The notes under the pieces were generated by a model. It saw nothing but the letters and a program-made list of their open reading frames with translations. It ran no database searches and was not told where the DNA came from. The translations under genes and the position numbers were made by a program. DNA of 64,000 nt from Candidatus Kuenenia stuttgartensis. GTDB taxonomy: Bacteria > Planctomycetota > Planctomycetia > Planctomycetales > Planctomycetaceae. The first letter of the stretch is position 1. The number at the start of each line of letters is the position of its first letter. Below are positions 2,053 to 19,721 of the stretch, one piece after another. The DNA is taken from contig CAMAVB010000002.1 in NCBI GenBank assembly GCA_945861465.1, forward strand, positions 40,600-104,599. The letters run 5' to 3'.

Positions 2053-3537
2053 ATGAGTTCTGATGTAGCAGAGCAGGCGGTAGCTGACAGCGAAGAAGCC
2101 AAATCTCGCATGGCTTTGAAAGTTGAGATTAAGGAAATTGGAGCGTGCCGCAAGCACATTTCTGTGACCGTTCCGGAAGCCGATATTCGCACGATCCGCA
2201 CCGACGCGCTGGGGGAATTATCCAAAAAAGCCGAGGTTCCCGGGTTTCGCGTCGGAAGAGTACCGATTGCGTTGCTGGAGAAACGATTCAAGAAAGAAAT
2301 CACGGCAGACATCAAGCAAAAAGTTTTGATGGCCAGTCTGGAGCAGCTTTCGGACGAAAGCAAAATCGAACCGATCAACGAGCCTCGCATTGACGTTGAA
2401 AGCCTCGACATTCCGGACACGGGTGACTTTCACTACGAATTTGAAGTGGAAGTTCGACCGGAATTTGATCTGCCGGATTATACGGGAATCGCAATCAATC
2501 GCTCCATCGCTGAACCGACGGCGAAAGAGCTTGAAGAATACAAAGAACAGTTTCTGGATTCTTATGCCGAACGATTCACGGTTGATGAACCGGCGGTCGC
2601 GGGTGACTACGTTATCTGTGACCTGACCTTCGCCCATGACGGCAGAACTATTCGCCAAATCGGCGAACAAAGTCTGCGTGTCATGGCGCAACTGGACTTC
2701 CCGGATGCTGTTCTGGAAGGCTTTGATCAACTGATGGTTGGCGCGAAGGCAGGGGAGACTCGCACGGCAAATATTCAGATTTCCCTGCAGACTCCCATCG
2801 TTGAAATGCGTGGCGAAACGGTCGTTGCGACGTTTACGGTCTCGGAAGTTCAACAATCTCGAAGGCCAGTGATCGACAGAGAATTCTGTGAAAAGCTGAA
2901 TGCGGAGAATGAAGCCGAGCTTGAGACTTTGCTTCGCGATTCAATGACGCGCCAGTTTGAATATCAGCAGCGCCAGGAAGCTCGCCGTCAGGTTCTGGAT
3001 CAGATCATGGCTTCGGCTGACTGGGATCTCCCGGAATCACTTGTTCGTCAGCAGACAGAAAACGCATTGCGGCGAGAAATGCTGGAAATGTCTCAGGCTG
3101 GATTTACACGCGAACAGATCATGGCTCGTGAAAATAAGATCCGCCAGGATGCAGTGGCCACGACAACGCAAGCGCTCAAGGAGCACTTTGTGCTCGACAA
3201 AATCGCAACGGTCGAAGGAATTGAATGCCTGGAATCCGATATTGATCGCGAAATGCATACGATGTCATTTCAAAGTCGTGAACCGGTGCGGCGCATTCGG
3301 GCTCGCCTTGTGAAGTCGGGTATGATTGAGAACCTTCAAGCTCAGCTTCGCGAACGCAAAGCGGTGGATTTCATTCTGGAGCGTGCAACATTTGTTGATG
3401 TACCTCGGGAACCACAGCAGAAGCAGAATCAGACTTCGGCTCGTTTTGCGATCTGCGGTAACATGAATTCCAGCCTGATTGATGATTCTTTTTCCGCCAC
3501 AGTTGCCACGGCTGCCACTAACGACGAATCTGCATAA
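2053..3537 (+). CDS. tig: Trigger factor
   Basis: VEIKEIGACRKHISVTVPEADIRTIRTDALGELSKKAEVPGFRVGRVPIALLEKRFKKEI; typical TF N-domain, PPIase and C-domain; followed by clpP genes. Confidence 0.93.
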   Translation: MSSDVAEQAVADSEEAKSRMALKVEIKEIGACRKHISVTVPEADIRTIRTDALGELSKKAEVPGFRVGRVPIALLEKRFKKEITADIKQKVLMASLEQLSDESKIEPINEPRIDVESLDIPDTGDFHYEFEVEVRPEFDLPDYTGIAINRSIAEPTAKELEEYKEQFLDSYAERFTVDEPAVAGDYVICDLTFAHDGRTIRQIGEQSLRVMAQLDFPDAVLEGFDQLMVGAKAGETRTANIQISLQTPIVEMRGETVVATFTVSEVQQSRRPVIDREFCEKLNAENEAELETLLRDSMTRQFEYQQRQEARRQVLDQIMASADWDLPESLVRQQTENALRREMLEMSQAGFTREQIMARENKIRQDAVATTTQALKEHFVLDKIATVEGIECLESDIDREMHTMSFQSREPVRRIRARLVKSGMIENLQAQLRERKAVDFILERATFVDVPREPQQKQNQTSARFAICGNMNSSLIDDSFSATVATAATNDESA

Positions 3538-3652
3538 ACTTGTCTGTTCTGCAGAGCCAGGCGCGCGTAGGATTACGCGGCGCCTGTTTTTGTTGGCAGA
3601 CACCGGATCTTATTTTTCAACGACGTAAACGTAATACAGCAGGATCAAGCGA

Positions 3653-4264
3653 ATGAAGGACCCGCGATTCGAATATACGCCGATGGCCGCACGAGAATAC
3701 TCCGCCCAGCGTCAGATGACGGTCGGCGATCTGCTGCTTGACAATCGGATTATCTTTCTCGATGGACCAATTCATGACGGCAGTGCGAATCTCGTCATCA
3801 TGAAGATGTTGTTCCTGCAGTCGGAAAATCGCCATCAGGACATTCATCTGTATATTAACTCGCCGGGCGGCTCTGTCACAGCCACATTGGCGATCTACGA
3901 CATCATGCAATTCATCGAATGCGATGTGGCAACATACTGCGTAGGGCTGTCAGCCAGCGGTGGCGCAATTCTTGTCGCCGGCGGTGCGGCGGGAAAACGA
4001 TTTGCTCTGAAACATTCCAAAATCATGATTCATCAGCCGTACGGGCAGGTGGGCGGGCAGGTATCGGACATCGAGATCCAGGCACGCGACATTCTTGCCG
4101 CTCGGCAACTGCTGAATGAAATCCTGGCCAGCCACACCAAACAGCCGGTTGAAAAGATCGCCAAAGATACGCAGCGAGATCACTATCTCACCGCAGTGGA
4201 GGCTAAAACTTACGGTCTGGTCGATGAAATCCTCGACCGAAAACCGAGTGAAAAAAAGAAATAA
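3653..4264 (+). CDS. clpP: ATP-dependent Clp protease proteolytic subunit (copy 1)
   Basis: [59 protein letters not shown]...IMIHQPYG; catalytic Ser/His context present (ASG instead of ASM). Confidence 0.95.
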   Translation: MKDPRFEYTPMAAREYSAQRQMTVGDLLLDNRIIFLDGPIHDGSANLVIMKMLFLQSENRHQDIHLYINSPGGSVTATLAIYDIMQFIECDVATYCVGLSASGGAILVAGGAAGKRFALKHSKIMIHQPYGQVGGQVSDIEIQARDILAARQLLNEILASHTKQPVEKIAKDTQRDHYLTAVEAKTYGLVDEILDRKPSEKKK

Positions 4265-4370
4265 GCTGGCCTGAACCCCGGCGTGGCGTGACCGCTGAAT
4301 TTTCATCGCACGGGATGCGATGCGGCAATTGTCCTGACCCTGAACTTTTCATCTCTGCTGGATTCCGGAA

Positions 4371-4958
4371 ATGACAGTACTTGTTCCTTACGTAATCGAA
4401 AAGAATGGTCGCGACGAACGCGCGATGGATATCTACAGCCGCTTGCTGAAGGATCGCATTGTGATCCTCGGCAGTGGTGTGAATGATGACGTTGCCAACA
4501 GCATTGTCGCTCAGTTACTTTTCCTGCAGTTCGACGACCCGAAGGCTGACATTCATCTGTACATCAACAGCCCCGGCGGTTCCATCACTGCGGGCATGGC
4601 AATCTACGACACAATGCAGTACATCAGCTGTGACGTGGCGACATACTGTATCGGCCAGGCCGCCAGCATGGGCGCAATTCTGCTCACAGCCGGTGCTCCC
4701 GGCAAACGCAATGCTCTTCCAAACGCCCGAATCATGATTCATCAGCCGCTGGCTGGCATGGAAGGCACGGCGACGGAATTGGAAATTCACGCCAAAGAGG
4801 TATTGCGGATTAAGGCAAGGATGAACGACATTCTGCTCAAACACACCGGTCAAACGCTCAACAAGATTGAAGACGACACCGACCGTGACAATTTTATGTC
4901 AGCCGAAGAGGCGAAGCATTACAACCTGATCGACACTGTGCTGGAGCGGCTGACGTAG
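4371..4958 (+). CDS. clpP: ATP-dependent Clp protease proteolytic subunit (copy 2)
   Basis: [86 protein letters not shown]...MIHQPLAG. Confidence 0.97.
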
Positions 4959-5262
4959 TCCTGCACGAAGGGCGTTGCGAGCTTCGCTTCTCACCGGCAC
5001 TTGGATTGAATGCAGAGCCATCTCAAAAACACTTGTCAGCCACTCACTGGCCCCTCCCAGATTCCGCTCCGCAACCACTCGACTCGTACAATTCTGACCG
5101 GAATAATGGCCCACTTTCTGGCCGGAATCGACAGCCCAGTCCTCCTCCTCGCACTTCATTTGTCGTTGAACCAACATTTCGGCAACCATCCAGGCGAGTG
5201 CTCAGTCGCGTATTGATGTGTGCCACAGGTTCTGACAGTGCTTCTCGAGGAGTTCTTCACAA

Positions 5263-6024
5263 GTGTCGCTCGAAAAAGCTGATGCGCTCGTGATTCGACA
5301 GGTGGATTTCAGCGAATCCAGCCGGGTTGTTACGTTTTTCAGTCTGGAATTTGGTAAGTTCGCGGCTTTAGCGAAGGGAGCGAAGCGACTAAAGGGACCT
5401 TTTGATGCTGCTCTTGACCTACTTTCCACGTGTCGCGTAGTCTTTATCAAGAAATCTTCCGGCACCCTCAATCTGCTCACGGAAGCGCGCCTCATCAGCC
5501 GCTTTCAACCGCAGAATTCCGGAGCCGGAGGTGGTTTGAGCAGTCTTTATGGCGGCTACTATGTCGCGGAATTGCTGAGCGGACTTACGGAAGATTTCGA
5601 TCCGGCACCGGAAGTCTATAATCTTGCGATCTCCACGTTGGCGGCCCTTTCATCTCCTGAAAACCTTTCTTCTCCCCTCATTATTCACTTCGAAATCTCG
5701 CTCCTGCGGCTCATTGGTCTGCTTCCTAATCTCTTTGAATGTTCCGTCTGCGGCGAGGCCGTGCAAACTGGCAAAAAGTTTGCACATTGGGTCAGCCAGG
5801 GCGGTGTGCTGTGCGGTGCCTGTCGCCGCGAAGACTTCGCTGGAGTTTCCATTTCGTCAGGCTCCATCGAAATCCTGCGTCGCCTGACTCAGGAATCTGC
5901 AGAGACGATCTGCAACATTGAATTTACAGGAAAACAGTCGGAGGAGTGTCACAAGCTGGCAGTGTCGGCCATCACTCACGCTCTCGGGCGTCGGCCTTCG
6001 ACATTGCGGTACATTCAGATCTGA
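5263..6024 (+). CDS. recO: DNA repair protein RecO
   Basis: MSLEKADALVIRQVDFSESSRVVTFFSLEFGKFAALAKGAKRLKGPFDAALDLLSTCRVVF...FECSVCGEAV; OB fold plus Cys motif. Confidence 0.92.
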   Translation: MSLEKADALVIRQVDFSESSRVVTFFSLEFGKFAALAKGAKRLKGPFDAALDLLSTCRVVFIKKSSGTLNLLTEARLISRFQPQNSGAGGGLSSLYGGYYVAELLSGLTEDFDPAPEVYNLAISTLAALSSPENLSSPLIIHFEISLLRLIGLLPNLFECSVCGEAVQTGKKFAHWVSQGGVLCGACRREDFAGVSISSGSIEILRRLTQESAETICNIEFTGKQSEECHKLAVSAITHALGRRPSTLRYIQI

Positions 6025-6072
6025 CAACATTGACAACATTGACTTTGGCCACGATTCAGGAAAGTTTTCACC

Positions 6073-7449
6073 ATGCAGCTTCGCAGGATGCTCGATCGCC
6101 GAAAGGAACCGGCTCGTCGAACCCGATCGGGCGGTGGGCTCGACGCGCGAAGACATGCCCCTGATTCCGGAATCCGTTGCCTGTTGATTCCGGGGCTGCT
6201 GTTGATCTGCCTGCTGTCGGGCTGCTCGACATTTTCGCGTGACGGCGATTCGGGGATGCTGGATATATCCCGGATGCTCAAACCGGGATCGATCCGCGGG
6301 CCGCTCGAACGCTCGCTCTTTGGCGAAGACAATCCTCTGGAAATGGGACGACGGTTTTCGGAAGCAGAACGCCGCCAGGTTCAGCAGTGCCGTGTCGCCT
6401 TTGAAAGCGGCGACTACGAGCAGGCGATCAAGCTCAGCAAAAAAGCCGCGAAGAAATTCAAAGAGACGTCACTGGGCGAAGAAGCTCAGTTCTATCTGGC
6501 TGAGTCCTATTTTGCTCAGGGAGAACATGGCAAGGCACAGGATGGTTACGATCAGTTGTTCCAGGACTATCCTTCGACGCGTTATGTCGAACCGGCCACG
6601 CGCCGAATGTTCACAATCGCATGCAATTGGCTGGAAGTCACTGAACCGACGGCAAAGAATGCAATTCGCCAGGTGAGCGGAGAAAAGGTGATTGAAGACA
6701 AGACACCCGCCAGGCGTTCGAACGATCCGACAGTTCGCGTCCCCGTACTTCCGAATTTTCACGACAAGTCGCGTCCATGGTTCGACACGCAGGGCAACGC
6801 GCTCAAATGTTTGAAATCCATCTGGATGAATGATCCGACCGGACCCCTGGCAGATGACGCATTGATGCTGACGGCGACATATTATCAACGCAAAAAGAAC
6901 TTTGTCGAAGCGGATCGCTACTTCGAAATTCTGCGGGACGAGTACCCCGACAGCCCGCATCTGGAAGATGCCTTTCTGCTTGGGGCACACGTGAAACAGA
7001 TGAGTTATCAAGGTCCGTACTACGAAGGCCGCGAACTCAAAGGTGCCCAGAAACTGAAGGAACAGTCTCTGCATTTGTTCCCGGCATCTCTCGAACGACC
7101 GCAATTGCGGACAGACCTTCAGAAGATCTATCTGCAGGAAGCCGAACGGGCATGGTATGAAGTTGAGTATTATCAGAAAAAACGCAAACCACGAGCCGTG
7201 GCGATCGCCTGTATTCAGGTGATCAATGAATACCCCGACACGTCGTACGCAAAAGACGCACGAGACACTCTGACAGCCATCGATCGCCGAGAACTCCAGG
7301 GTCTGCCGGAAGTCGCGGAATTCGTTGAATCCTTGCCTGCCAATGAGCCACCACCGTCTGAGTCTTCTGGCAGCAAACAAGGCCCCGTGAAGTCGGTCAG
7401 CCATTCAACGAGTGAAGAGGACCGTGGCGGTCGCATGACGTTCCCATAA
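6073..7449 (+). CDS. BamD-like TPR outer-membrane assembly lipoprotein
   Basis: Lipobox LLSGCS; FESGDYEQAIKLSKKAAKKFKETSLGEEAQFYLAESYFAQGEHGKAQDGYDQLFQDYPSTRYVEPA tetratricopeptide pattern. Confidence 0.75.
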   Translation: MQLRRMLDRRKEPARRTRSGGGLDARRHAPDSGIRCLLIPGLLLICLLSGCSTFSRDGDSGMLDISRMLKPGSIRGPLERSLFGEDNPLEMGRRFSEAERRQVQQCRVAFESGDYEQAIKLSKKAAKKFKETSLGEEAQFYLAESYFAQGEHGKAQDGYDQLFQDYPSTRYVEPATRRMFTIACNWLEVTEPTAKNAIRQVSGEKVIEDKTPARRSNDPTVRVPVLPNFHDKSRPWFDTQGNALKCLKSIWMNDPTGPLADDALMLTATYYQRKKNFVEADRYFEILRDEYPDSPHLEDAFLLGAHVKQMSYQGPYYEGRELKGAQKLKEQSLHLFPASLERPQLRTDLQKIYLQEAERAWYEVEYYQKKRKPRAVAIACIQVINEYPDTSYAKDARDTLTAIDRRELQGLPEVAEFVESLPANEPPPSESSGSKQGPVKSVSHSTSEEDRGGRMTFP

Positions 7450-7629
7450 AATCAGCCATGACACGGTGACATGATTCTTGGCGCGGGCTTCGCCCGCAAC
7501 CGAAACAAGTACGCAGATTTCGCTGAAATCTGCTGTGCCGACTTCGGCGAAGTCGCCCTACATTGAGTCGGCCTCAAAATAATGTTTTGCAAAAAAATCT
7601 TCTCAGGGATTTTGAACTCTCATTGTTTG

Positions 7630-8145
7630 ATGAGCAGAATTCTCAATCGGATGCTTGTCTTCAGCGTCGTCGCCATCGCCGGCTGCGGCTATACGCTTGG
7701 AACGCAGACACTGCACGATGTGCGAACGGTACATGTTCGTGTCTTCCAGTCTGAATCGTACCGTCGAAATCTGGATTATCTGCTGACTGAAGCCGTGCAG
7801 CGCGAGATTCGAACACGGACACCTTACCGGCTGGAAGATGCTGATACTGCTGACACAATTTTGACAGGCCGGATCGTCGATATCCGCAAGTCGGTCCTCA
7901 GCGAGAATCGCTACGATGATCCACGCGAATTGCAACTGATGGTGGGTGCGGAGGTGACCTGGGTCGATCGTCGCAGCGGACAGATTCTGCATCAACAGAC
8001 TTTTCCGGTCGGCCCGCAACTGACCCACCAGGCCAGCAACGTCAGCTTTGCACCGGAAGTGGGCCATTCACTTGCGACAGCTCAACAGGAAGCTGCCCAG
8101 CGCCTTGCGTCTCGAATTGTGGATCTAATGGAGGCCCCGTGGTAG
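7630..8145 (+). CDS. LptE-like (LPS assembly) lipoprotein
   Basis: VVAIAGCGYTLGTQTLHDVRTVHVRVFQSESYRRNLDYLLTEAVQREIRTRTPYRLEDADTADTILTGRI; lipobox followed by GYTLG, LptE/DUF4136-like. Confidence 0.7.
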   Translation: MSRILNRMLVFSVVAIAGCGYTLGTQTLHDVRTVHVRVFQSESYRRNLDYLLTEAVQREIRTRTPYRLEDADTADTILTGRIVDIRKSVLSENRYDDPRELQLMVGAEVTWVDRRSGQILHQQTFPVGPQLTHQASNVSFAPEVGHSLATAQQEAAQRLASRIVDLMEAPW

Positions 8146-8191
8146 CCGTGCCTCACTTCTCCCGCAGCGACTTACTCCGGAAAGCGCCAAC

Positions 8192-8821
8192 ATGCCAATT
8201 GTGACTCCCGTCTCCCAGGACCAGGCGACTGATAAAGCGGCTCAGACGTACGAACGTATCCGCGAAATCTTTGAGGTCTCTGAAATTCCTGAGATTTTTC
8301 AGTACATGGCCAACGTCCCGGCGTTCGTCCATGACTTCTTCATGAATTTCCGTAAGTTTGTACTGACTGCCGGTAAACTTGACGAGAAACGAAAGCTCCT
8401 CATTGCCTGCGCCGTAGCGGGACAGGCGGGCAGCACAAAATGGCTGGAATACTTGCAGACATTTGCGGCTGCGCGCAACGTCACCACTACGGAAGTGACC
8501 GAAGCACTGGCCGTTGGCGCGACCAATTCGATGTACAACGTGCTCTTCAAGTTTCGCGACATCAGCGGCACGGATGTCTTTGACGGCATGGGTGTTGGAT
8601 TGCGGGCGCACACGTTTCAGGGGACGTCGCTGGATGATATGACCGTGGAATTGATCAATTTGTCTCTGAGCGACATTAACGGGTGCAAACCATGCACCGC
8701 AGCTCATGTCCAGAAAGCCCGGCAAACAGGCGTTGGAGATGAAGCGATCTACGAAGCCATCCAGTGCGCGGCAACCATGATCGCCGGAACGCAGTTTCTG
8801 AGATCAGTTGGAATTGCGTAA
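8192..8821 (+). CDS. Carboxymuconolactone decarboxylase / AhpD-like protein
   Basis: KLDEKRKLLIACAVAGQAGSTKWLEY...LSLSDINGCKPCTAAHVQKARQTGVGDEAIYEAIQ; CxxC...H motif. Confidence 0.75.
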   Translation: MPIVTPVSQDQATDKAAQTYERIREIFEVSEIPEIFQYMANVPAFVHDFFMNFRKFVLTAGKLDEKRKLLIACAVAGQAGSTKWLEYLQTFAAARNVTTTEVTEALAVGATNSMYNVLFKFRDISGTDVFDGMGVGLRAHTFQGTSLDDMTVELINLSLSDINGCKPCTAAHVQKARQTGVGDEAIYEAIQCAATMIAGTQFLRSVGIA

Positions 8822-8981
8822 CCTGGATTCACCCGTGCGAAAGACTGCGATTTCGGGCGTAAAGCCTTGATTTCAAGTCCAGAAGCTGCCATCCTTCCGG
8901 GCTTCACTGCTGTTTGGCGTTCGCAGGGAAGTGAATTTCCGGCTATTTTGTCTCAGTTGAGTGTTTTCGGAGTCGTTTGAG

Positions 8982-9320
8982 ATGCATATTCGTAAGGGTG
9001 ACCTGGTTGAAGTTATTTCAGGTGACGATTCAGGTACTCGTGGCCCAGTGATGTCCGTGGATCGAAAAAACGGCAAAGTCGTTATCGAAGGCGTCAATAA
9101 GGTCTACAAGCACGTTAAGCGTGGACATCCTAAAAGCCCGCAAGGCGGTCGGCTGCACAAAGAACTGGCAATCGATGCCTCCAACGTGATGCACATCTGT
9201 CCGAAAACGAATAAACCCACGCGTGTTGGGATCAAAGTTAACGAGGACGGCAGCAAAGAATTGATTGCCAAACGCAGCGGTGCAGCGATTCGCCAGATCA
9301 TGCAAACGAAAAAGGCCTGA
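8982..9320 (+). CDS. rplX: 50S ribosomal protein L24
   Basis: MHIRKGDLVEVISGDDSGTRGPVMSVDRKNGKVVIEGVNKVYKHVKRGHPKSPQGGRLHKELAIDASNVM; KOW domain; start at 8982 preferred. Confidence 0.93.
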   Translation: MHIRKGDLVEVISGDDSGTRGPVMSVDRKNGKVVIEGVNKVYKHVKRGHPKSPQGGRLHKELAIDASNVMHICPKTNKPTRVGIKVNEDGSKELIAKRSGAAIRQIMQTKKA

Positions 9321-9437: not shown

Positions 9438-9815
9438 ATGAAGAAAGAGATTGTCTATTGGGCGTGTACCCTGTTGCTGTGCCTGGCATGTGGCGCTATG
9501 GGGGTTTCAAATTATGCGCAACCAGGTGACATGAACGTAGAGATAGCGAAGAGCGGCTATCCGTCTCATTTTTTCAAGTTCCTGGGTGTGTGGCAAGTCC
9601 TTGCTGCAATCGCGATCTCTGTTCCAAAAGTTCCACGTGTCAAGGAATGGGCGTACGCGGGTGTCGTGATCAACCTGATTGCTGGCGGACATCACCACTA
9701 CATGGCAGGTGACGGTCTCAGTAAGATTGCCCTTCCATTCGTCGTGCTGCTGTGTGCACTTGGCTCGTATTTGCTTCGCCCCATGTCTCGTCGTTTGACG
9801 GGCTCAATGATCTGA
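9438..9815 (+). CDS. Small DoxX-like integral membrane protein
   Basis: ORF 125 aa with four predicted TM segments; FFKFLGVWQVLAAIAISVPKVPRVKEWAYAGVVINLIAGGHHHYM pattern of DoxX-like proteins. Confidence 0.6.
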   Translation: MKKEIVYWACTLLLCLACGAMGVSNYAQPGDMNVEIAKSGYPSHFFKFLGVWQVLAAIAISVPKVPRVKEWAYAGVVINLIAGGHHHYMAGDGLSKIALPFVVLLCALGSYLLRPMSRRLTGSMI

Positions 9816-9914
9816 TTCGATTCACAAAACAAGACCGAACAAAAGGTTGAACCGGAGAGTTATGCTCCGCGCGGTCGGATTCGAGGTTTTGTGAGCGGCA
9901 AGGCACCTAGGGGA

Positions 9915-10024
9915 TGTTGATTTAATACCAACCCGAAGCGCCAGCGAGGCAGAAACGGCTGAATTCCTCGCTGACGCTTCGGGTTAGTATGAGTCTGAGC
10001 CCCAATAATCACTAAATCAACAGA
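9915..10024. repeat. Nested palindromic repeat: inner AACCCGAAGCG..CGCTTCGGGTT hairpin (9931-9987), outer TGTTGATTTAAT / CTAAATCAACA arms
   Basis: Inverted arms read from sequence. Confidence 0.65.
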
Positions 10025-10114
10025 CCGCTGGCGCCATGTCGCTCACGTGGTTGATTAGATCAACAGACGGCCAGCGCCTTGCGGCTCGGTTGTGTGGCCG
10101 GGTACAGTTCAGTC

Positions 10115-13100
10115 ATGACTCCCGCACGGAAATATTTTCGCAATGCACTGTCGTCCTACTTCACGTGGGCGGATCATGGGCGCGAATTGTGCTGGTGCAA
10201 TGGGGTGACGATTGCTTTTCACGAGGAGATTTCTCCAGTTCTTGATCGACTTGTGGATCAGAATTTCCCGGACTTTTCGACGCTGGCGCTGAGCCTTGCG
10301 ACGCTGCGGAATTCGTGGCCTGAAGTGGCGGCACAGCTGACTGATGCGTTCACATTTCTGGCGTCGTCACCGATTGCACAAATTCGCAAAGCAGCTGACT
10401 CACGCAACGAGCTGTTCGAGGCGTGGCCTGAATCGTTGCGAAAGTTGAGTTTGCTTTCGAGTTATGTCGAAGTCTATTCACCCTCAACGTTGCAACGTTG
10501 CGAGCTGCTTGCTCTTGTTTTTGGGGAATTCTCCAGCAACTTCGCAGCATCGACGCAGGAAGAACTTGCCACGGCATTTCGATCTGGTCTGCCGGAAGAC
10601 TGGCTCGTAGAGAATGAACGACATTCGGGGGCCGAACTGCTGTTACTTCCAAGAAACCTTGGCTACGCATTGCGGATCGGCCGTCACGAGGAAATCACGA
10701 CATTCGCTGTACCTCGAATTCTGCGGATGTTAAGAATTGCGAATTCTCTTGCAGCCTGCATTCCGTGTGATACCGTCGAACAACTGGACCAACTGCTGAA
10801 GACCGGGATCGCGGATGACATCAAGGCTCCGGAGGATGAGCTGCTGGATGAGCTGCAGGATCAGCGAGCTCAGGCACGCGGTCTGCTTGAACAGCTTTCG
10901 GACGATGCGCAACTCAGTGGATTCGCAAGACTGACGAAGCAACTAATTGCGGCGATCACGCTTCCTCGGACGTTGTCGGTGCCTGATGACCTGCAGATGG
11001 GCGGCATTTCGGACATCTCCAATCGCGGCCGCCTTGACAGTCTTTTGCTGAGTGAGCTGGCTCACGATGACCTGACGCTGGCAGTTCGACTGGCTATGAA
11101 CGAAGCGCTTTACATGCGTCGTGAATCGCCGCCTTCGCCGCAGACGAGAACTCGCAGCGTGCTCATTGATCTCAGCTTGCCCATGTGGGGAATCCCGAGG
11201 CTCTACGCGACTGCTGCCGCAATGGCCCTGCATGTGACAAGTGACAAACAGATTCGCATTCACTGTTTTCGTTCGTCGCTGACCGGGATGAAGGCCACAA
11301 AGCTGACAACTCGCGAGGGTTTGCAGGAACACATGTCGGCTCTTGAACCGACGGAACATCCTGGAGCGTCGCTGCAGTCGTTCTTCCAGGCCATTTTGGA
11401 CGAACCGTTGTCCGCCGAACCCGTACTGATCACCACAAGCGACGTTTTGGAGAGCACCGAGTTTCGTCAGACGCTGGACAAGACATGCATCGGCGATCTC
11501 TGGTTGATCGTAGTCGAACGAGACGGGCGGTTGAAAGTTCTGCAGAGAACTCGCCAGGGGACATCCGTCCGTAAGCAATTGCAGTTGCCGCTGGATGAGA
11601 TTCTGAGTCCTCGAACGGCCGCGAAGATTCGTCGAACGGATCTGCCCGATGACCTTCCCGCGATTTTTCATCTTGCGAAGTTCCCGTTGCTGCTGTCGCA
11701 CGAGATTCGAATTAGTCGACTCTGGAAATGGGGCGAATCTGCCATTGCAGTGACAGACGACGGTCGGTTGATGCACTGGACTGAAAAAGGTCTGGGGGCT
11801 CGACAGTTGGCGACGGGGTTGTCCGGTCGAGGTGATGTGAAGATATTTATTTCGCGAAGGCTGGCAGGCACGACCCTGCAACTCTTGTTTTGCCCGATGG
11901 GAGAGCAGGCTGGAACGTTGGTGACCGTTTCCGGGATGAATGATGACGTGACCATTCAACGAGCCGACTACCGAGTTCCCATCGTATCGGATATCGTCGT
12001 GACCGAACCCGCTCTGCTCGTATTCGGAAAGACTCACGAAGGTCTGGAAGTCTGTTCTGCAATTACACATTACGCATGCGATTTTCTCGGGACTCACATT
12101 CTAGGTCACGATTTCAAGGCACGAACGGGCCGATGCATGTTACATGCTGAGAAGGGCTTTTGTGTCCTCAACTGGGTCGGTGGTCACGCTTCGTGGTTAT
12201 TGCAGAAGCTGCCAGAGCCCTATCAACGTTACGTGGGAGTGGAAGAAGCCAGGTCCGCTGTGGCCGAGATTACATCCGGGGTTTACTTTGCCATCAGCAT
12301 GCGCCAACTCATTGATCCGCAGTTCCAGAAGCGATTTGATACGCTGAATGATGTACTTCAAAATAGGTACGATGTCTATCTGCATTCATTTCTTGAAGTG
12401 TCGGTCGATGGCGATCTAGCGGTCCTGGGGCATGTCGCTCGTGCCAGTTTGGCAAGAACTCGGAGCGTGAGGGATTCGTCGCCGACATCGCCGTTAATTG
12501 CGACGACGGGACGCACAACGGTCGATTTGCGTTCCGGAAAAGTCATTTCCAGTACAAACAACGAATCAACGGGGAACGAGATTGCTCGCATCGAATACGA
12601 ACGTGCGTTCCATTTCGTGCGTCAGCACACTCCACATTATCGGTTTTCACGCATCGGCACCGACAGCGGACGATTGGTGTTGCAGGATCCCAGCGGCGGA
12701 TTGTTTCACGTTGCCTGGGATTCAACGAACCGAGCGATACGATTAGGGCCAGCCGGTGAAACAGCAGCATTGCCGCAGTTGATTGAGTTTATTGAAACGC
12801 CCGCCTGTGTTTCCGAAAAGAACTCGACCTCCAATGAGGCTGAGAGACCCGTTGATGACGCTGACAAATACACAGTGAGGCTTACGGGCGTCGGAGAAAA
12901 CCAAATCTCAATCATTAAGACGATACGCACTGCAACAAACGTGAGCTTGCGTGAAGCAATAAATCTCGCAGAAGGCGTACCAATTGTTTTGAGTCAGGGT
13001 GTCTCAAAGAAATCGGCGGATGCTCTTCAGTCGGAGATCATCAATGCTGGTGGCACCTGTGAGATTCTTCCTTCGCAGTGCATTGACCAGAAAGCAACCG

Positions 13101-13438
13101 CTACAGGTGTCACGCTGCAGAAAGCCGAGTGGGAAAACGGCAGCAAAGCCTGGCTGGATTCCCGAGGCTTGCTGCATCTGAAGAGTGCCAATCGAACACA
13201 TCCGGAGATCACTCTGGTGATGCGTGATGGTCCATTGTCCGGCTGGCTGTCATCCGGCGAAGTTTTTGGAGACAATTATTACTGCGGCAAAGATCCGACC
13301 GCTCAGGGGCTGCGGCGAGTGACCGCAGATTTTGCCTGGAATTCGGCCATTCGGCTATTCATTGAATCCGTGCCATGGAACTTCCACTACAGCTCCGATA
13401 CTGCTCAAACGGGAAATACAGTGTTGCCGGGATACTGA
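10115..13438 (+). CDS. vWA (degenerate MIDAS) + beta-propeller protein with L7/L12-CTD-like domain; MoxR-vWA-beta-propeller ternary-system-like vWA component
   Basis: vWA core RSVLIDLSLPMWGIPRLYATAAAMALHV...PVLITTSDVLES; propeller-like repeats about 11700-12750; KYTVRLTGVGENQISIIKTIRTATNVSLREAINLAEGVPIVLSQGVSKKSADALQSEIINAGGTCEIL (12866-13072) resembles ribosomal L7/L12 CTD. ORF track start 10079; 10115 preferred. Confidence 0.65.
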   Translation: MTPARKYFRNALSSYFTWADHGRELCWCNGVTIAFHEEISPVLDRLVDQNFPDFSTLALSLATLRNSWPEVAAQLTDAFTFLASSPIAQIRKAADSRNELFEAWPESLRKLSLLSSYVEVYSPSTLQRCELLALVFGEFSSNFAASTQEELATAFRSGLPEDWLVENERHSGAELLLLPRNLGYALRIGRHEEITTFAVPRILRMLRIANSLAACIPCDTVEQLDQLLKTGIADDIKAPEDELLDELQDQRAQARGLLEQLSDDAQLSGFARLTKQLIAAITLPRTLSVPDDLQMGGISDISNRGRLDSLLLSELAHDDLTLAVRLAMNEALYMRRESPPSPQTRTRSVLIDLSLPMWGIPRLYATAAAMALHVTSDKQIRIHCFRSSLTGMKATKLTTREGLQEHMSALEPTEHPGASLQSFFQAILDEPLSAEPVLITTSDVLESTEFRQTLDKTCIGDLWLIVVERDGRLKVLQRTRQGTSVRKQLQLPLDEILSPRTAAKIRRTDLPDDLPAIFHLAKFPLLLSHEIRISRLWKWGESAIAVTDDGRLMHWTEKGLGARQLATGLSGRGDVKIFISRRLAGTTLQLLFCPMGEQAGTLVTVSGMNDDVTIQRADYRVPIVSDIVVTEPALLVFGKTHEGLEVCSAITHYACDFLGTHILGHDFKARTGRCMLHAEKGFCVLNWVGGHASWLLQKLPEPYQRYVGVEEARSAVAEITSGVYFAISMRQLIDPQFQKRFDTLNDVLQNRYDVYLHSFLEVSVDGDLAVLGHVARASLARTRSVRDSSPTSPLIATTGRTTVDLRSGKVISSTNNESTGNEIARIEYERAFHFVRQHTPHYRFSRIGTDSGRLVLQDPSGGLFHVAWDSTNRAIRLGPAGETAALPQLIEFIETPACVSEKNSTSNEAERPVDDADKYTVRLTGVGENQISIIKTIRTATNVSLREAINLAEGVPIVLSQGVSKKSADALQSEIINAGGTCEILPSQCIDQKATATGVTLQKAEWENGSKAWLDSRGLLHLKSANRTHPEITLVMRDGPLSGWLSSGEVFGDNYYCGKDPTAQGLRRVTADFAWNSAIRLFIESVPWNFHYSSDTAQTGNTVLPGY

Positions 13439-16400
13439 TTCACGGCGACTCGCCCGCTGACTGGTTGACCACCGTGACCCACTGGGGGCTTGGTACGGAG
13501 ACGCTGCGTTTTCTGGTGATCGATGAAAGTAGCAGGCACTTTCCAAGTGCCGTAGCCGAAAAAATCGCTGAAAACGCGGACGGCACACGGAGTGTGCCTG
13601 CTACTCTGAAGCCAAACCAAGGGCCATCAGGCGAATGCCCGCCGACGGAGCGACGGGGCTACGGGAGTTGCTCAGCACTGATTATTGGCACTGGCCTTCC
13701 GCAAAGCCGTGACGAATTCGAACGCCTGGTGAGCCACAAAGCAGCCATCCCTGTCCTGCCTTTGTTTTATCGCTGCGTCGCCGATCGACTGTTTCTTCCC
13801 ATCGACGCGGAACTCACGCCGCACGTTTCTGATGCAGAGCTTCGAGATCTGCTGCCGTCGGATGTATCCTCAGTCCTCGTGTGGCATCCTGCGGCGGGAT
13901 TGATTCAATTTGAATCGGATCAGATTCCGCATGTGGCCGATCTTCTGCGAAGCCCCCCGATTGCAGAGACACATTGGAATGACGCAAAATTCGGCGAGAC
14001 ACTGAACGATCGAATTCGCAGCCTCAATCCGATTGAATCTGACAGACTGGTCGATATTCTTCAACGGGGACAGGACGACATTGGCAAAGACGCGGGCGAC
14101 ATTTCAAAAGCACCACCAAGTCCGGATGAAGTTCAACATCCAAAGCTAAACGACGCCAAGCGTGCCCTGCAGCGAATGATCGCCAAAGGAATCTTCGGGA
14201 TCACAAGCCGTCTGCCAGAAGGACCGGGCGGCAGTCAGGCTCTGGCAAAAATTCACCAATGGGCGGCGTCACTTTTGAGTAATCTGACTGCTGGTTCCGC
14301 TGCTGGTGCTGGCGTTGCCGGCCAGGAAATTCAGCGAGCGATCAGCAACATCTCTTCGCAGCGGGAGAATGAACTCAAACGCCTCCTGCACCTGCTGAAA
14401 AACGACCCCGACCAGGGCTTGCGATACGCGCTGCCTTTGCATGGAGGTTCTCATCGAGGCCAGGCGAACCCGTCAGGACGGCTGGGTGAGCGGACTCCGG
14501 ATTTTCAACTGGGGCAGCTCGGCGGGGCAGGTCCTGCTGATGGCTGGGATCTTCCGTGGGAATATCACGTCAAGCTGATGCAGAGTTATCGCGATCTGGC
14601 TCAGCGTGAAATACGGCTGGCCAATCATCGGCGAGCGGCCTACATTTACGCGACGCTGCTTGGTGATCTCAACGCTGCGGCGACGGCTCTGGAAGCTGGC
14701 AGTCTTCATCGCGATGCCGCGACGATTTATGAGAAACATCTGAACAATCCGCTCAAGGCGGCCGAGTGCCTTCGCAACGGCGGTTTCTGGGAAGACGCGA
14801 TTGTGATCTATCGTGGGCTAAGTCGCTGGATTGAGTTGGGTGAGTTGCACTTGAAACTCGATCAGCCGGAGGAAGCACGCATCATGTTTTCGAACGAGAT
14901 TCGAAGCTGTGAATCGCGTCGAGATTTTCTGAAAGCCGGTGAGTTGGCCGATCAGCGGCTGCAGGATCCCGACCAGGCCGCAGCACTCCTGACAAAGGGC
15001 TGGAAACTGAATGCTTCGGCCGAAAAATGCTTCCGGGCTCTGTTGGATCTGCATGGTCAGCGAGGTCAGCATGCTCAGTCGAGCCTGGCGATTCAGAAGC
15101 TGGCAGGCGGACCGAACCTGTTCGTTCATCAGCGCGCCGACGCGGTCAAAGTCTGCAGTGAAACGGCTGTGGCCTATCCTGACGCCGGTGTTCGTGATCT
15201 CGCACGTCGGCAGACATGGCAGATTGCGAGCGCGGTGTTGCAGGATGCTCAGTCCGAACTGCATCCCTTCGCACTCGCGGTGATTCGCACGCTGTCAAAA
15301 CAAGACGCACTGCTTCAGCAGGATGCTCAGCGATTTGCAGCGCATCGAGTCAAAATGCTGAAGGTGCAAAAAGATCAACAGCGGAAATCTGCGGCGAAGA
15401 GGACGAAAGTGATCCCGCAGCCAAAGACTGTTGTCAAGACGCTGGTTCCTGTGTGCAAAGTTCAGATCACTCCGCCGAACGCTCCGCAGGGAATGAAATG
15501 GCTGTCTGGTGTGATCTCGCACGGGCATTGTTTTGTGCTCGGCGTCGCCCCGGATGAGTCATTGGTGCTTGTTGAAAGCGCGCAGGCGCTTGTTTCGGAA
15601 ACTCACGGGTTTCCTCGCGCCGCATTCATTCTCCGCGCGGAAGAGAATCTACCATTAAAAACCTGCGAGCTTCGACAGAACGGAATTAGGCCGCGGGCCT
15701 GGCTGCAGTCTTTCCCCGCGTCATCCAACTGGAACAAAGTGGCGTTGGAACGAGTTCGCGGGCAGATGAGGTTTCTGGATGTTCTCGCACCGCAGAACAA
15801 TCTCCTGCTGGATTTTATGCAGCTTTCGACGGGCACAATCTGGGCCTTGTTCATCAATGCGCAGCGCCGCCTGGTTTTGGAAGCGATTGGACTGAACGGG
15901 CTTGTTCGCCAAACGCTGGTGCTCGATCTGGAGTTCAGCACGGACGATAATTTTCTTTATGATCGTTACAAAGTACAGTCGTACCGAATTCATCACGATG
16001 GCGCTCGCGTAATCGTCCTTGCAGGCCGACATGTCTGGCGGGTTGATTCTGTTGAAGCTGCAGTCGTTGATACGTCGAGCGAAATCCTCGTGAAACCGAC
16101 CCCGGTGATTGAGTTTCCCGAGGCTCCCTTGAAGATGGTTGCCTCGCCGGTGAACACCACGCTGCGTCTGGCATTTTCATTTAAAGACAGTGCTCAGGCT
16201 GTTTGGCCGATGTCGAATGAGAGCTGTTCATTCGCATCGGGATTTGATCAACCATTGATTGCCTGTACTGGCAACGGTCTCTTCGTTGCGGCATGTAGTA
16301 CGACAGGACGAATCGCCAGTTATCGGCTGAATGCGGGCATTGCAGTACTCCTGGCCGAATTTGAGCAAGCGATCGATTCCGACCCGATCGTTGATCTCAT

Positions 16401-16479
16401 GCCAGGACCGGGTGGCAACGATTTCTGTGTACTGCACGCATCCGGTCGCCTGCTGAGGCTTCAGATTCCGGTCCGGTAG
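13375..16479 (+). CDS. bpX6-like N-terminal domain + TPR-like region + C-terminal beta-propeller protein
   Basis: N-domain (SVAGILIHGDSPADWLTTVTHWGLGTETLRFLVIDE...LPLFYRCVADRLFLPIDAELTPHVSDAELRDLLPSDVSSVLVWHPAAGLIQFESDQIPHVADLL), helical repeats (YRDLAQREIRLANHRRAAYIYATLLGDLNAAATALEAGSLHRDAATIYEKHLNNPLKAAECLRNGG), C-terminal propeller; overlaps upstream gene by 64 bp. Confidence 0.6.
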   Translation: MELPLQLRYCSNGKYSVAGILIHGDSPADWLTTVTHWGLGTETLRFLVIDESSRHFPSAVAEKIAENADGTRSVPATLKPNQGPSGECPPTERRGYGSCSALIIGTGLPQSRDEFERLVSHKAAIPVLPLFYRCVADRLFLPIDAELTPHVSDAELRDLLPSDVSSVLVWHPAAGLIQFESDQIPHVADLLRSPPIAETHWNDAKFGETLNDRIRSLNPIESDRLVDILQRGQDDIGKDAGDISKAPPSPDEVQHPKLNDAKRALQRMIAKGIFGITSRLPEGPGGSQALAKIHQWAASLLSNLTAGSAAGAGVAGQEIQRAISNISSQRENELKRLLHLLKNDPDQGLRYALPLHGGSHRGQANPSGRLGERTPDFQLGQLGGAGPADGWDLPWEYHVKLMQSYRDLAQREIRLANHRRAAYIYATLLGDLNAAATALEAGSLHRDAATIYEKHLNNPLKAAECLRNGGFWEDAIVIYRGLSRWIELGELHLKLDQPEEARIMFSNEIRSCESRRDFLKAGELADQRLQDPDQAAALLTKGWKLNASAEKCFRALLDLHGQRGQHAQSSLAIQKLAGGPNLFVHQRADAVKVCSETAVAYPDAGVRDLARRQTWQIASAVLQDAQSELHPFALAVIRTLSKQDALLQQDAQRFAAHRVKMLKVQKDQQRKSAAKRTKVIPQPKTVVKTLVPVCKVQITPPNAPQGMKWLSGVISHGHCFVLGVAPDESLVLVESAQALVSETHGFPRAAFILRAEENLPLKTCELRQNGIRPRAWLQSFPASSNWNKVALERVRGQMRFLDVLAPQNNLLLDFMQLSTGTIWALFINAQRRLVLEAIGLNGLVRQTLVLDLEFSTDDNFLYDRYKVQSYRIHHDGARVIVLAGRHVWRVDSVEAAVVDTSSEILVKPTPVIEFPEAPLKMVASPVNTTLRLAFSFKDSAQAVWPMSNESCSFASGFDQPLIACTGNGLFVAACSTTGRIASYRLNAGIAVLLAEFEQAIDSDPIVDLMPGPGGNDFCVLHASGRLLRLQIPVR
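13528..13605. repeat. Palindromic repeat inserted in-frame inside the 13375-16479 CDS
   Basis: AGTAGCAGGCAC tttccaa GTGCCGTAG ... GGCACACGGAGTGTGCCTGCTACT; outer arms AGTAGCAGGCAC/GTGCCTGCTACT are perfect complements; related half-element at 57665-57697. Confidence 0.75.
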
Positions 16480-16569: not shown

Positions 16570-16681
16570 GTTTAACCGCGTGGGCAACGCCCCGCGCTTC
16601 AAATTTCAAATTTCAAATTTCAAATCTCAAATTTCAAATCTCAAATATGCCAATCGCGGCCCGCTGGGCACGCGGTTAAAC
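16570..16681. repeat. Palindromic element TTTAACCGCGTGGGCAACGCC..GCCCGCTGGGCACGCGGTTAAA with an internal (AAATTTC)n microsatellite
   Basis: Arms and tandem CAAATTT units read from sequence; related elements at 25388-25475 and 56571-56601. Confidence 0.75.
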
Positions 16682-16742: not shown

Positions 16743-19721
16743 CTATCGATTGATGCCGACGTAGAAGCTGAAGATACGTTCGTCGTCTTCGTCTTCGGCA
16801 AGCACGGGGAAGGCGAAGTCGAACGCGAGCGGGACGGGGCCCATCGCGGGAATGACGATGCGAAGCCCGAAACCCACGCTGGTTCGAAACTTATTGAGCG
16901 AGACACTTTCATCGACCGTCCCGAAGTCTGAAAAACCCACAACGCTGATCATGTCGTCTGCCGTGACTGGCATTCGGTATTCCACAGTGCCGAGAGCCTG
17001 AAACGTACCACCGGTGGTGAACCCGCTTTCGCGTGGGGTCACACCACGATAGGAAAAACCGCGGAACGACTGGAATCCCCCTGCAAAGTAGCGTTCAAAC
17101 GTGGGCGTGTCATTGCCGCTGACGCCGATGTTCCCGGCTAACGTCAGGACATGGCGTCCGGTTCCGTCGGGTCGATTATACATCGTAAAGTACTGCCGCG
17201 CATCTGCTTCGACCTTCGGGAATGTGAAGTCGCCGAACGCCTGCTCGTAACCGCCGTCAAGGTAATGACCTTCCGTCGGCATCATTGAAGAATCTCGCGT
17301 GTCGTGCGTCACAGACGCCCGCAGAGTGGACAGGAAATTGCTTCCAATATAAGGCAAAACGCTGGCGGGCGTCGGAGTCTGCGGGTTGCGCATCTCGACT
17401 TGTTCTAGACGTGCTGCCAATGAGCCCGACCATTCCGGCGTGAACTGTTTTCCAAGGGAAATACGACCGCCGTATCGATCTTCAGTCCAGTCCGGATAAA
17501 AGCGATTGAAGTAGAAGCCACTCACACCGAAGCTGTAATCCGTATACAAAAAATACGGATCCGTCCAGCTGACGGCATACCGACTGACCTGATTACCAGG
17601 TGCGGCTTCCAGACGAAATCGCTGTCCGCCACCACGCCAGGCTCGACCTTCGATGATGTCGGAGAGGGTTGTTGGCGGACGGAGGATGTCGAAGTTCGAT
17701 TCGTCCCACACAAACGATCCGACCAAACCGGAGTTGCTGTTAACACCGGCACCAAACATCAGCCGTCCCGTGCGACCTTCAGTCGCGTTCACATTGATGT
17801 CCAGCCATCCTGGCTCGATTTTGCGGAATTGGCCATCGTACGGGCCCCCGTCGATTTTCGGGTCCGTCTGGTCGAGACTCTGGGCACGCACGACTGGTTC
17901 TGCTGCACCGAAATCCTGCGATGTCTCGAATGCAACAGGCTCAAAAGAAAAGAGTCGCGACGGCGTGACCGTACGAAATCCCATCAGGTCCGATTCATAG
18001 ACGGGATGGGCCACGTCATGATTTAACTCTGCCGGTGGGGTGGCCAGTGGCTCAACTTCACGTTGATAACGCGGTCGAGTTGGCTTGGTTTGTCGTTTTT
18101 CCGCGTCATCTGACTCCGCACCTGTGTCACGGTCACTTACCGTATCGGTTTCACCTTGGCGAGTCGATCGCCGACGACCGCTCTTGATAATTTTTGGATT
18201 TGCCAGATCACCCGGCTGCATCTGCAATCGTTCATACAGCGGTCGAACCGGTTCACTGGCATTCGCCGTGTCGGTTTCGTCTCGGCGAGTCAGCCAGTGA
18301 TAATCTTCGTCCGCACTCTGCGACGCAGATCGTTGGGCGGCGACTGAGAATTCCTGAGTCCAGTCATCGGGACCCGACGGAGGTCCCTGAGCGCGATACG
18401 TTCTCGAATCGCCCGAGAATCCGGACTGGCCTGGCTCGACAGGTTCAAACTGGAACCCGATACCAGCTTCAAACAACTGACTTCCGTTGAGTCGCGACTG
18501 TCCACGCCTGATGATTCTTGGGTCTGCCAGATCGCCCGGTTGAATCTGGAGACGGTCTAACGCAACCGTTTGCTTCGTATGGGGATGATCGCCATCGTAT
18601 TTGATGTTGATGTCGCGAACGTAGCGCGGTCGGTCTTCGTCAATTTCAAAGACCAGATCAACAATTCCAGGCTGTTCAGTAAAGTGCGGAACAGGGGTCA
18701 CTGTTGCAAAAAAGTGACCCTTCTCACCGTAATACCCAAGCATCCGGCGGACATCCTTTGCCAGGGGATACGCGCTGTAATAGTCGCCATTATTCAGTTT
18801 CGATTCGGACCTCAGGCGATTCGTCGCGATTGTGGCATTCCCCTCATAGCGAATTTCACGAACCTTGTATTGCTTTCCTTCAGTGACAACAAAGTGCAGA
18901 TTGACATCAGAACGGTCCTTTGAAAACAAAGGTGTACCCGTGACTTCCACGTCAAAAAAGCCCACATTACGGTAGTACTGTTTCAGAGCCTCAACGTCTG
19001 CCGGAATGGTGTCAGGATTATAGATTCCGCCAAAAATCAGGAAGGCTTCCTTGCTGATCAGATTCTTTCTCAGATCTCCATTCGACCAGAAACTGTTGCC
19101 TTCGAATGTTCTTTGTTTGACCTGAACCTTAGGGCCTTCCTCGATCTCGAAAATGACGTCGCGATCGCCGGAGCTGTCACCTTCGATCAGTGTGACTTTA
19201 ACAAAGTAGTACCCCTTGTCCTTATATTCCTGTTCAATTCGATGGACGGCTTCGTTATTCGCGCGGGCATCGAACGGACTGCCCGCCTTCAAGCCAGTCC
19301 ATGCCTTCAGATGCTTGACCTTGACCTTCTTGTTGCCGCGGAATTCCACGCGTTGCACAATTGGTTTTTCGTGAACCGTATAGACCAGAATCAACCCATC
19401 CGGCGTATCGTCGATTCGTTCGTTAACGTTGAAAAACCAGCGAGTCGACATCAATGATCGTTTGTCTTCGAGCATCAGTTGTTCGGAAATTGGTCGCTGC
19501 GGCTGGGCCTGAATTTTCTGCAGAATGACCGACTCCGGAATTGTCTGATTGCCTTCGATGCGAACATCCGCGATCGTCACTTCACCTTCCTGTTGAGCGT
19601 AGATCATCCCCGGCTGAGACACCAACGCGGCGGTGATCGCAGCAATCAACAGAATGCACGAATTCAGCCACAATTGTGGATGGCGTCGGATTCGCCGAAT
19701 CTGAGCGTGCGAACTTGGCAT
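16743..19721 (-). CDS. bamA: Outer membrane protein assembly factor BamA (POTRA + Omp85 barrel)
   Basis: POTRA-like repeats (EVTIADVRIEGNQTIPESVILQKIQ...), barrel end GGFQSFRGFSYRGVTPRESGFTTGGTFQALGTVEYRMPVTADDMISVVGFSDFGTVDESVSLNKFRTSVGFGLRIVIPAMGPVPLAFDFAFPV. Confidence 0.92.
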   Translation of the reverse strand: MPSSHAQIRRIRRHPQLWLNSCILLIAAITAALVSQPGMIYAQQEGEVTIADVRIEGNQTIPESVILQKIQAQPQRPISEQLMLEDKRSLMSTRWFFNVNERIDDTPDGLILVYTVHEKPIVQRVEFRGNKKVKVKHLKAWTGLKAGSPFDARANNEAVHRIEQEYKDKGYYFVKVTLIEGDSSGDRDVIFEIEEGPKVQVKQRTFEGNSFWSNGDLRKNLISKEAFLIFGGIYNPDTIPADVEALKQYYRNVGFFDVEVTGTPLFSKDRSDVNLHFVVTEGKQYKVREIRYEGNATIATNRLRSESKLNNGDYYSAYPLAKDVRRMLGYYGEKGHFFATVTPVPHFTEQPGIVDLVFEIDEDRPRYVRDINIKYDGDHPHTKQTVALDRLQIQPGDLADPRIIRRGQSRLNGSQLFEAGIGFQFEPVEPGQSGFSGDSRTYRAQGPPSGPDDWTQEFSVAAQRSASQSADEDYHWLTRRDETDTANASEPVRPLYERLQMQPGDLANPKIIKSGRRRSTRQGETDTVSDRDTGAESDDAEKRQTKPTRPRYQREVEPLATPPAELNHDVAHPVYESDLMGFRTVTPSRLFSFEPVAFETSQDFGAAEPVVRAQSLDQTDPKIDGGPYDGQFRKIEPGWLDINVNATEGRTGRLMFGAGVNSNSGLVGSFVWDESNFDILRPPTTLSDIIEGRAWRGGGQRFRLEAAPGNQVSRYAVSWTDPYFLYTDYSFGVSGFYFNRFYPDWTEDRYGGRISLGKQFTPEWSGSLAARLEQVEMRNPQTPTPASVLPYIGSNFLSTLRASVTHDTRDSSMMPTEGHYLDGGYEQAFGDFTFPKVEADARQYFTMYNRPDGTGRHVLTLAGNIGVSGNDTPTFERYFAGGFQSFRGFSYRGVTPRESGFTTGGTFQALGTVEYRMPVTADDMISVVGFSDFGTVDESVSLNKFRTSVGFGLRIVIPAMGPVPLAFDFAFPVLAEDEDDERIFSFYVGINR

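Follow-up and report, generated by a model that had tools for sequence, protein, structure and literature searches.

A vWA and bpX3 gene pair in Candidatus Kuenenia stuttgartensis as the probable adaptor half of a beta-propeller MoxR-vWA system with a broken operon

In a 64,000-nucleotide stretch of the draft genome of Candidatus Kuenenia stuttgartensis (assembly GCA_945861465.1, contig CAMAVB010000002.1, positions 40,600 to 104,599, or G000:C2:40600-104599 in our numbering; hereafter the window), two very large genes overlap by 64 bp, as described in a first-pass annotation of the sequence, and both open reading frames (ORFs) are intact. Gene 1 encodes a protein with a von Willebrand factor A (vWA)-like domain, and gene 2 a protein combining a bpX3 domain, a tetratricopeptide repeat (TPR)-like region, and a propeller. 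The pair is best explained as the adaptor/scaffold half of a known ternary system, the beta-propeller MoxR-vWA systems (subsystem 4 of Kaur et al., 2020; PMC7159879), with the operon broken between bpX2 and the vWA gene and the motor half encoded elsewhere in the genome, very probably working in trans. This is a known kind of system, whose family the first-pass annotation recognized correctly (Pfam bpX0, bpX1, and bpX3 match far above chance), with a clear and recurrent operon split.

The first-pass annotation had reported no MoxR gene in the vicinity and regarded the pair as an orphan, a stripped-down variant, or a new two-component architecture. No bpMoxR or AAA_3 MoxR match was found on the entire 104.6-kb window contig, but the proposed architectures are not supported, because bpMoxR, bpX4, and bpX2 lie elsewhere in the genome. 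The genome search for MoxR paralogues that had been recommended returned at least 13 strong AAA_3 matches to generic MoxR and one true bpMoxR (PF20030), the sole protein of this genome to exceed 100 bits with the bpMoxR model. Its gene is split by a contig break, with 141 bits at the end of C69 and 167 bits at the start of C221; the two ends overlap by 5 bp, and the joined reading is in frame, matches the uninterrupted bpMoxR of the relative G005, and contains the P-loop GPPGTAKS. A bpX4 gene (3e-43) is located upstream of bpMoxR on C69 and a bpX2 gene (8e-42) downstream on C221, so that, together with vWA and bpX3 in the window, the five core genes are all present, in two places. The window system is therefore not MoxR-less, as a dedicated bpMoxR is encoded in the same genome.

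The flanks of the two loci indicate where the operon formerly stood. In G011 and G014, the closest relatives lacking the system, an 829-aa (amino acid) gene, tRNA-Cys, a 281-aa gene, and bamA are contiguous. In the window genome, the side bearing the 829-aa gene, tRNA-Cys, and the 281-aa gene adjoins bpX4, and bamA adjoins bpX3. We therefore infer that the operon was once contiguous beside bamA, with the 281-aa gene on its other side, and that it was broken between bpX2 and vWA. At present, csrA and gfo, which also occur as a pair in G014, come after bpX2, and rplX and a DoxX-like gene come before vWA; the earlier identification of rplX, the DoxX-like gene, and bamA as neighbors was confirmed. 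A repeat resembling a miniature inverted-repeat transposable element (MITE) is located at the left breakpoint, and a truncated copy occurs at the other (C221:2016-2030), which makes a repeat-mediated rearrangement plausible. The element has 15-bp terminal repeats, AGCGGTCTGTTGATT, with copies often approximately 107 bp apart end to end, and the terminal repeat has 97 matches in the window genome at no more than one mismatch and none in a reversed control. A simple inversion was considered as the cause of the split, but a direct exchange or translocation accounts better for how the junctions are oriented.

Other features of the flanks were also observed. The DoxX-like gene is missing from the corresponding place in G011, and a comparison of window positions 2053-9320 with L066 revealed that the genes of 2053-4958, next to rplX, are inverted in G011, indicating strong rearrangement in the genus. 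A short tandem repeat (CAAATTT/CAAATCT) is present at 16600-16650, between bpX3 and bamA.

The usual organization of the system was established from a scan of public genomes, which comprised 80 loci from planctomycetes, verrucomicrobia, bacteroidetes, acidobacteria, and others. The complete five-gene set is present in 58 of the 80 loci, and a bpMoxR gene precedes the vWA gene in 64 of the 68 having at least 3 kb of upstream sequence; consistent linkage to a MoxR in relatives, which the first-pass annotation had named as evidence against its own proposal, was thus obtained. The order bpX4-bpMoxR-bpX2-vWA-bpX3 occurs without large gaps in G005, G021, and G052, and with extra genes added in G025. 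The recognized genes follow the same order in G039, G040, and G034, where bpX2 or bpX4 was missed by simple BLAST or bpX3 lies past the contig end. In an even sample of 392 genomes of the phylum, bpX1 is present in 28, and a strong bpMoxR was found in all 25 of these that were taken on for the bpMoxR check. In 23 of the 25, including every single-contig genome, bpMoxR is on the same contig within approximately 6 kb of bpX1, the two exceptions being G154, with bpMoxR at a contig end, and G051. Among 59 relatives, nine possess the system. Two vWA-bearing genomes, G060 (L081) and G064 (L110), yielded no bpMoxR at E ≤ 1e-15; we do not count them as MoxR-less, because their loci end at a contig edge shortly upstream of vWA and the genomes may be incomplete. 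In addition to true bpMoxR, a second bpMoxR-like class scoring approximately 185-210 bits was observed (G005:C378, G154:C13, G105:C35, G169:C30, G102:C32, and G107:C1), which is possibly the MoxR of another ternary system.

The split is not confined to the window genome. Each of the genomes containing the four scan loci without an upstream bpMoxR (L079, L098, L105, and L135) has a bpMoxR elsewhere; these further split genomes are G059, G061, G062, and G063. The separate bpMoxR locus reads bpMoxR-bpX2 in G059 and bpX4-bpMoxR-bpX2 in G061 and G062, with bpMoxR alone on the stretch read in G063; in G061, both halves are inside long contigs. In the vWA and bpMoxR trees, each well-sampled split genome groups with the same intact relatives: the window with L077 and L080, L098 with L090, L105 with L092 and L149, and L079 with L078 (in the vWA tree). 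Since these tree partners are intact, at least three further bpX2/vWA breaks appear to be independent. When distance profiles were compared, the bpMoxR encoded in the same genome came first among 76 partners for the window, L079, L098, and L105 and eleventh for the truncated L135. The window lineage exhibits no clear rate increase, with branch lengths of vWA, bpMoxR, and bpX3 not raised relative to intact sisters. As both halves share their tree relatives and the lineage has not sped up, the two halves probably continue to function together in trans. The earlier suggestion that a MoxR is recruited in trans is thus probably correct as far as trans action is concerned, but the partner appears to be the system's own bpMoxR, displaced by the operon break, and not a generic paralogue.

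Inserts of 1.0 and 1.5 kb occur at the bpX2/vWA joint of two intact loci, one of which (L090) is the sister of the split L098, and no gap larger than 300 bp was found at the bpMoxR-bpX2 joint of any locus. Profile envelopes skew the vWA-bpX3 spacing statistics, which we set aside. In L019 (880-980), a palindromic repeat separates bpMoxR and bpX2, which normally touch or overlap.

The vWA component shares 38-41% identity with the vWA proteins of its nearest subgroup. Its AlphaFold model (mean predicted local distance difference test, pLDDT, of ~81) comprises a helical N-domain, an alpha/beta domain, a propeller, a poorly modeled L12 stretch, and the bpX1 beta domain (Table 1); the bpX0 N-domain, the L12 insertion, and bpX1 had been overlooked in the first-pass annotation. 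The Pfam matches to bpX0, Ribosomal_L12, bpX1, and bpX3 all exceed their curated cut-offs, and bpX1 is present as a single copy in the window genome. Propellers had been predicted in both proteins, and both are borne out by the AlphaFold models and Foldseek, with DDB1/AztD propellers retrieved for gene 1 along with a weak BamB profile match in that region. NCBIfam models recognized only the L12 domain in the window proteins, all else being at chance level, and single-sequence searches of the PDB found the same domain only in gene 1 and no match for gene 2. The L12 domain was reported earlier in bacteroidetes (Kaur et al., PMC7159879) and is found here in a planctomycete protein. The window protein is the only one of 43 vWA homologs scanned with Pfam to carry it, and phmmer, run against the collected loci, likewise matched no other protein.

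The vWA core proposed earlier for gene 1 stands in part: the strand and helix order of the modeled alpha/beta domain and the register of the Asp of the metal ion-dependent adhesion site (MIDAS) agree with a vWA fold, but recognition by sequence stays below threshold. The MIDAS was correctly described as degenerate, reading DLSLP in place of the canonical metal-binding DxSxS, but this is not special to the locus. Across 57 homologs, D352 is invariant, the +2 position is Gly in 43, and the +4 position is Arg in 47 and Pro in six (the window protein among them), so that degeneracy is a trait of the whole family. A subset of the vWA domains of these systems has been described as lacking one or both metal-binding aspartates (Kaur et al., PMC7159879).

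Homologs of gene 2 follow the vWA gene in related loci. Its model (mean pLDDT ~81) begins with the bpX3 domain, continues as an extended helical solenoid, and ends in a WD40-type propeller. The N-domain had been likened to bpX6, for which no match was obtained at E ≤ 10; bpX3 was matched instead, in this protein and in 50 of 50 homologs. The TPR-like middle predicted earlier was confirmed by the modeled solenoid and by a match of the homolog profile to the TPR part of WDR19/IFT144 (1.9e-7). No clear membrane segment was detected in gene 2 (best 19-residue hydropathy 1.17; 13 of 50 homologs exceed 1.6), and neither window protein yielded a match to an effector domain.

Table 1. Features of the vWA-bpX3 locus and its flanks (window coordinates).
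Feature	Position	Strand	Evidence or remark
vWA component (gene 1), 1107 aa	10115..13438	+	Intact ORF; Pfam bpX0/Ribosomal_L12/bpX1; possible alternative start TTG 10079
bpX0 N-terminal helical domain, residues 30-167	10202..10615	+	PF19915 1.2e-7, 32.6 bits vs. cut-off 27
vWA-like alpha/beta domain, residues 344-480	11144..11554	+	ivWA 0.0037 (below cut-off); beta-alpha order in model
MIDAS Asp D352	11168-11170	+	In vWA-like domain of gene 1
Second acidic residue D443	11441-11443	+	In vWA-like domain of gene 1
Gene 1 beta-propeller, approx. residues 536-880	11720..12754	+	AlphaFold strands, pLDDT mostly >90; Foldseek DDB1/AztD
Ribosomal L7/L12 C-terminal-like insertion, residues 920-984	12872..13066	+	PF00542 4e-14; low pLDDT in model
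bpX1 C-terminal beta domain, residues 1002-1084	13118..13366	+	PF19917 4.7e-18
Third component (gene 2), 1034 aa	13375..16479	+	Intact ORF; homologs come after vWA gene in related loci
bpX3 N-terminal domain, approx. residues 6-230	13390..14064	+	PF19919 6e-31
TPR-like helical solenoid, approx. residues 395-674	14557..15396	+	AlphaFold pLDDT >90 over most; WDR19/IFT144 match
C-terminal WD40-type propeller, approx. residues 690-1034	15442..16479	+	Foldseek RACK1/Asc1, template modeling (TM) score up to ~0.65 of target
bamA, right flank	16743..19721	-	Omp85/POTRA; synteny in G011, G014
DoxX-like gene, between rplX and vWA gene	9438-9815		Position compared with G011
MITE-like repeat at left breakpoint	9912..10029	.	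Right terminal repeat AATCAACAGACCGCT at 10015-10029, ~86 bp before vWA ATG

The window genes fit subsystem 4 in every tested point of architecture. Kaur et al. (PMC7159879) described this subsystem as beta-propeller ternary systems with a MoxR bearing a GXXXTAKS P-loop and a third component composed of an N-domain, TPR, and propeller. Likewise, the window genome encodes the vWA component, the third component, and the dedicated bpMoxR. The vWA component has an N-terminal helical domain, a C-terminal propeller, a beta domain, and an L12-type insertion; the third component follows the N-domain/TPR/propeller plan; and the GXXXTAKS bpMoxR (PF20030), the divergent vWA, the bpX0-bpX4 families, and the occurrence in planctomycetes also agree. 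The differences are the division of the core genes over two loci (a single cluster being the usual but not in itself a defining trait), the L12 insertion in a planctomycete, and a bpX3 protein without a clear membrane segment. The FtsH ternary systems (subsystem 3, ivWA PF19997), for which the same P-loop variant has been described (Kaur et al., PMC7159879), share a faint vWA kinship with gene 1. However, the window proteins carry bpX0, bpX1, and bpX3, and their third component has a bpX3/TPR/WD40 make-up without paired FtsH AAA+ domains; no FtsH pair or ubiquitin-like (Ubl) conjugation genes were seen beside the window genes or bpMoxR, in an inspection of these neighborhoods that did not extend to a whole-genome FtsH search. 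The principle of an AAA+ ring with a vWA adaptor, as in canonical MoxR-vWA pairs of the RavA-ViaA or MoxR-BatA type, would apply here as well, although the window vWA lacks the DxSxS MIDAS and propellers and bpX domains have been added.

Several points weigh against our interpretation of the pair as one half of a split but working system. The vWA assignment is weak by sequence, as the ivWA match on the isolated segment does not reach the cut-off, and profile comparison with canonical vWA domains of the same genome is also weak (p 0.016), with D352 aligned on the MIDAS Asp; the Foldseek overlaps of gene 1 have a high root mean square deviation (rmsd). Co-inheritance of the two halves is partly due to species descent, and since bpMoxR spans a contig break, its intactness is inferred. 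The fragmentation of the assembly (474 contigs), together with members of one MITE-like repeat family at both breakpoints and junctions with the direct-exchange topology expected of a repeat chimera, could also mean that the organism has an unbroken operon that was wrongly joined at the repeat during assembly. We consider such an artefact improbable. Exact words common to the two junction regions measure just 11 bp in direct and 16 bp in inverted orientation, which is less than a typical assembly chimera needs, and two separate misjoins would be required. Moreover, csrA-gfo beside the C221 breakpoint is an older pair, and other assemblies show this split too, G061 having both halves in the interior of contigs. 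A relic decaying after the operon break is similarly unlikely. Co-regulation has presumably been lost, and repeats have been inserted between bpMoxR and bpX2 and ahead of vWA, but the two window genes, bpX2, and bpX4 retain open reading frames, the branch lengths mentioned above are not raised, and several lineages are split yet keep both halves.

A genuinely MoxR-less orphan or new two-component system, as the MoxR-free contig might suggest, is hardly credible; it is already refuted as to gene content by the dedicated bpMoxR, bpX2, and bpX4, and bpMoxR accompanied the vWA gene in all 25 phylum genomes checked. Use of a generic MoxR paralogue in place of bpMoxR is very unlikely despite the number of such paralogues, given that only bpMoxR scores well with the bpMoxR model and that bpMoxR fits the vWA phylogeny best. 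A more serious alternative concerns function: the same machine might serve in housekeeping, as a chaperone that helps to assemble an envelope or scaffold complex, and not as a conflict system. The lack of a detected effector domain in the window proteins, their scaffold-like TPR/WD40 partners, and the absence of a conventional effector from the subsystem (Kaur et al., PMC7159879) are in its favor. It is a real possibility but not the one we favor, because the patchy occurrence among relatives and across the phylum suits accessory conflict or niche systems better. PADLOC gave no match for the window system, which is neutral either way.

Gene content, gene order, domains, broken synteny, and co-inheritance are documented directly here; complex formation and ATPase action are putative, as is the conflict role proposed by Kaur et al., and no experimental test of bpX systems was found in the literature searched. 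In other MoxR-vWA pairs, the vWA protein captures a peptide, which the MoxR ring remodels using ATP (Kaur et al., PMC7159879). By analogy, bpMoxR may form a hexameric AAA+ ring that would be coupled to the TPR/WD40 scaffold protein by the divergent vWA protein, with bpX2 and bpX4 possibly contributing. ATP hydrolysis would then remodel or release the bpX3-TPR-WD40 scaffold or its cargo, and, following a suggestion of Kaur et al. (PMC7159879), the propellers of gene 2 and of the vWA protein may associate with each other. A more speculative and rather doubtful idea is that the bpX2/vWA breaks separate a motor module (bpX4-bpMoxR-bpX2) from a sensor/scaffold module (vWA-bpX3), the two being separately regulated in some lineages, with the added L12-like domain, in the window genome, tying the latter to ribosomes or translation GTPases.

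Overall, a supposed MoxR-less exception becomes an instance of the rule, as the vWA/propeller component is accompanied by bpMoxR in nearly all genomes examined, broken operons included. The split genomes serve as natural evidence for the parts that need to remain linked, namely bpMoxR with bpX2 and vWA with bpX3. In addition, neighborhood-based searches for these putative immune systems will overlook or misread split cases.

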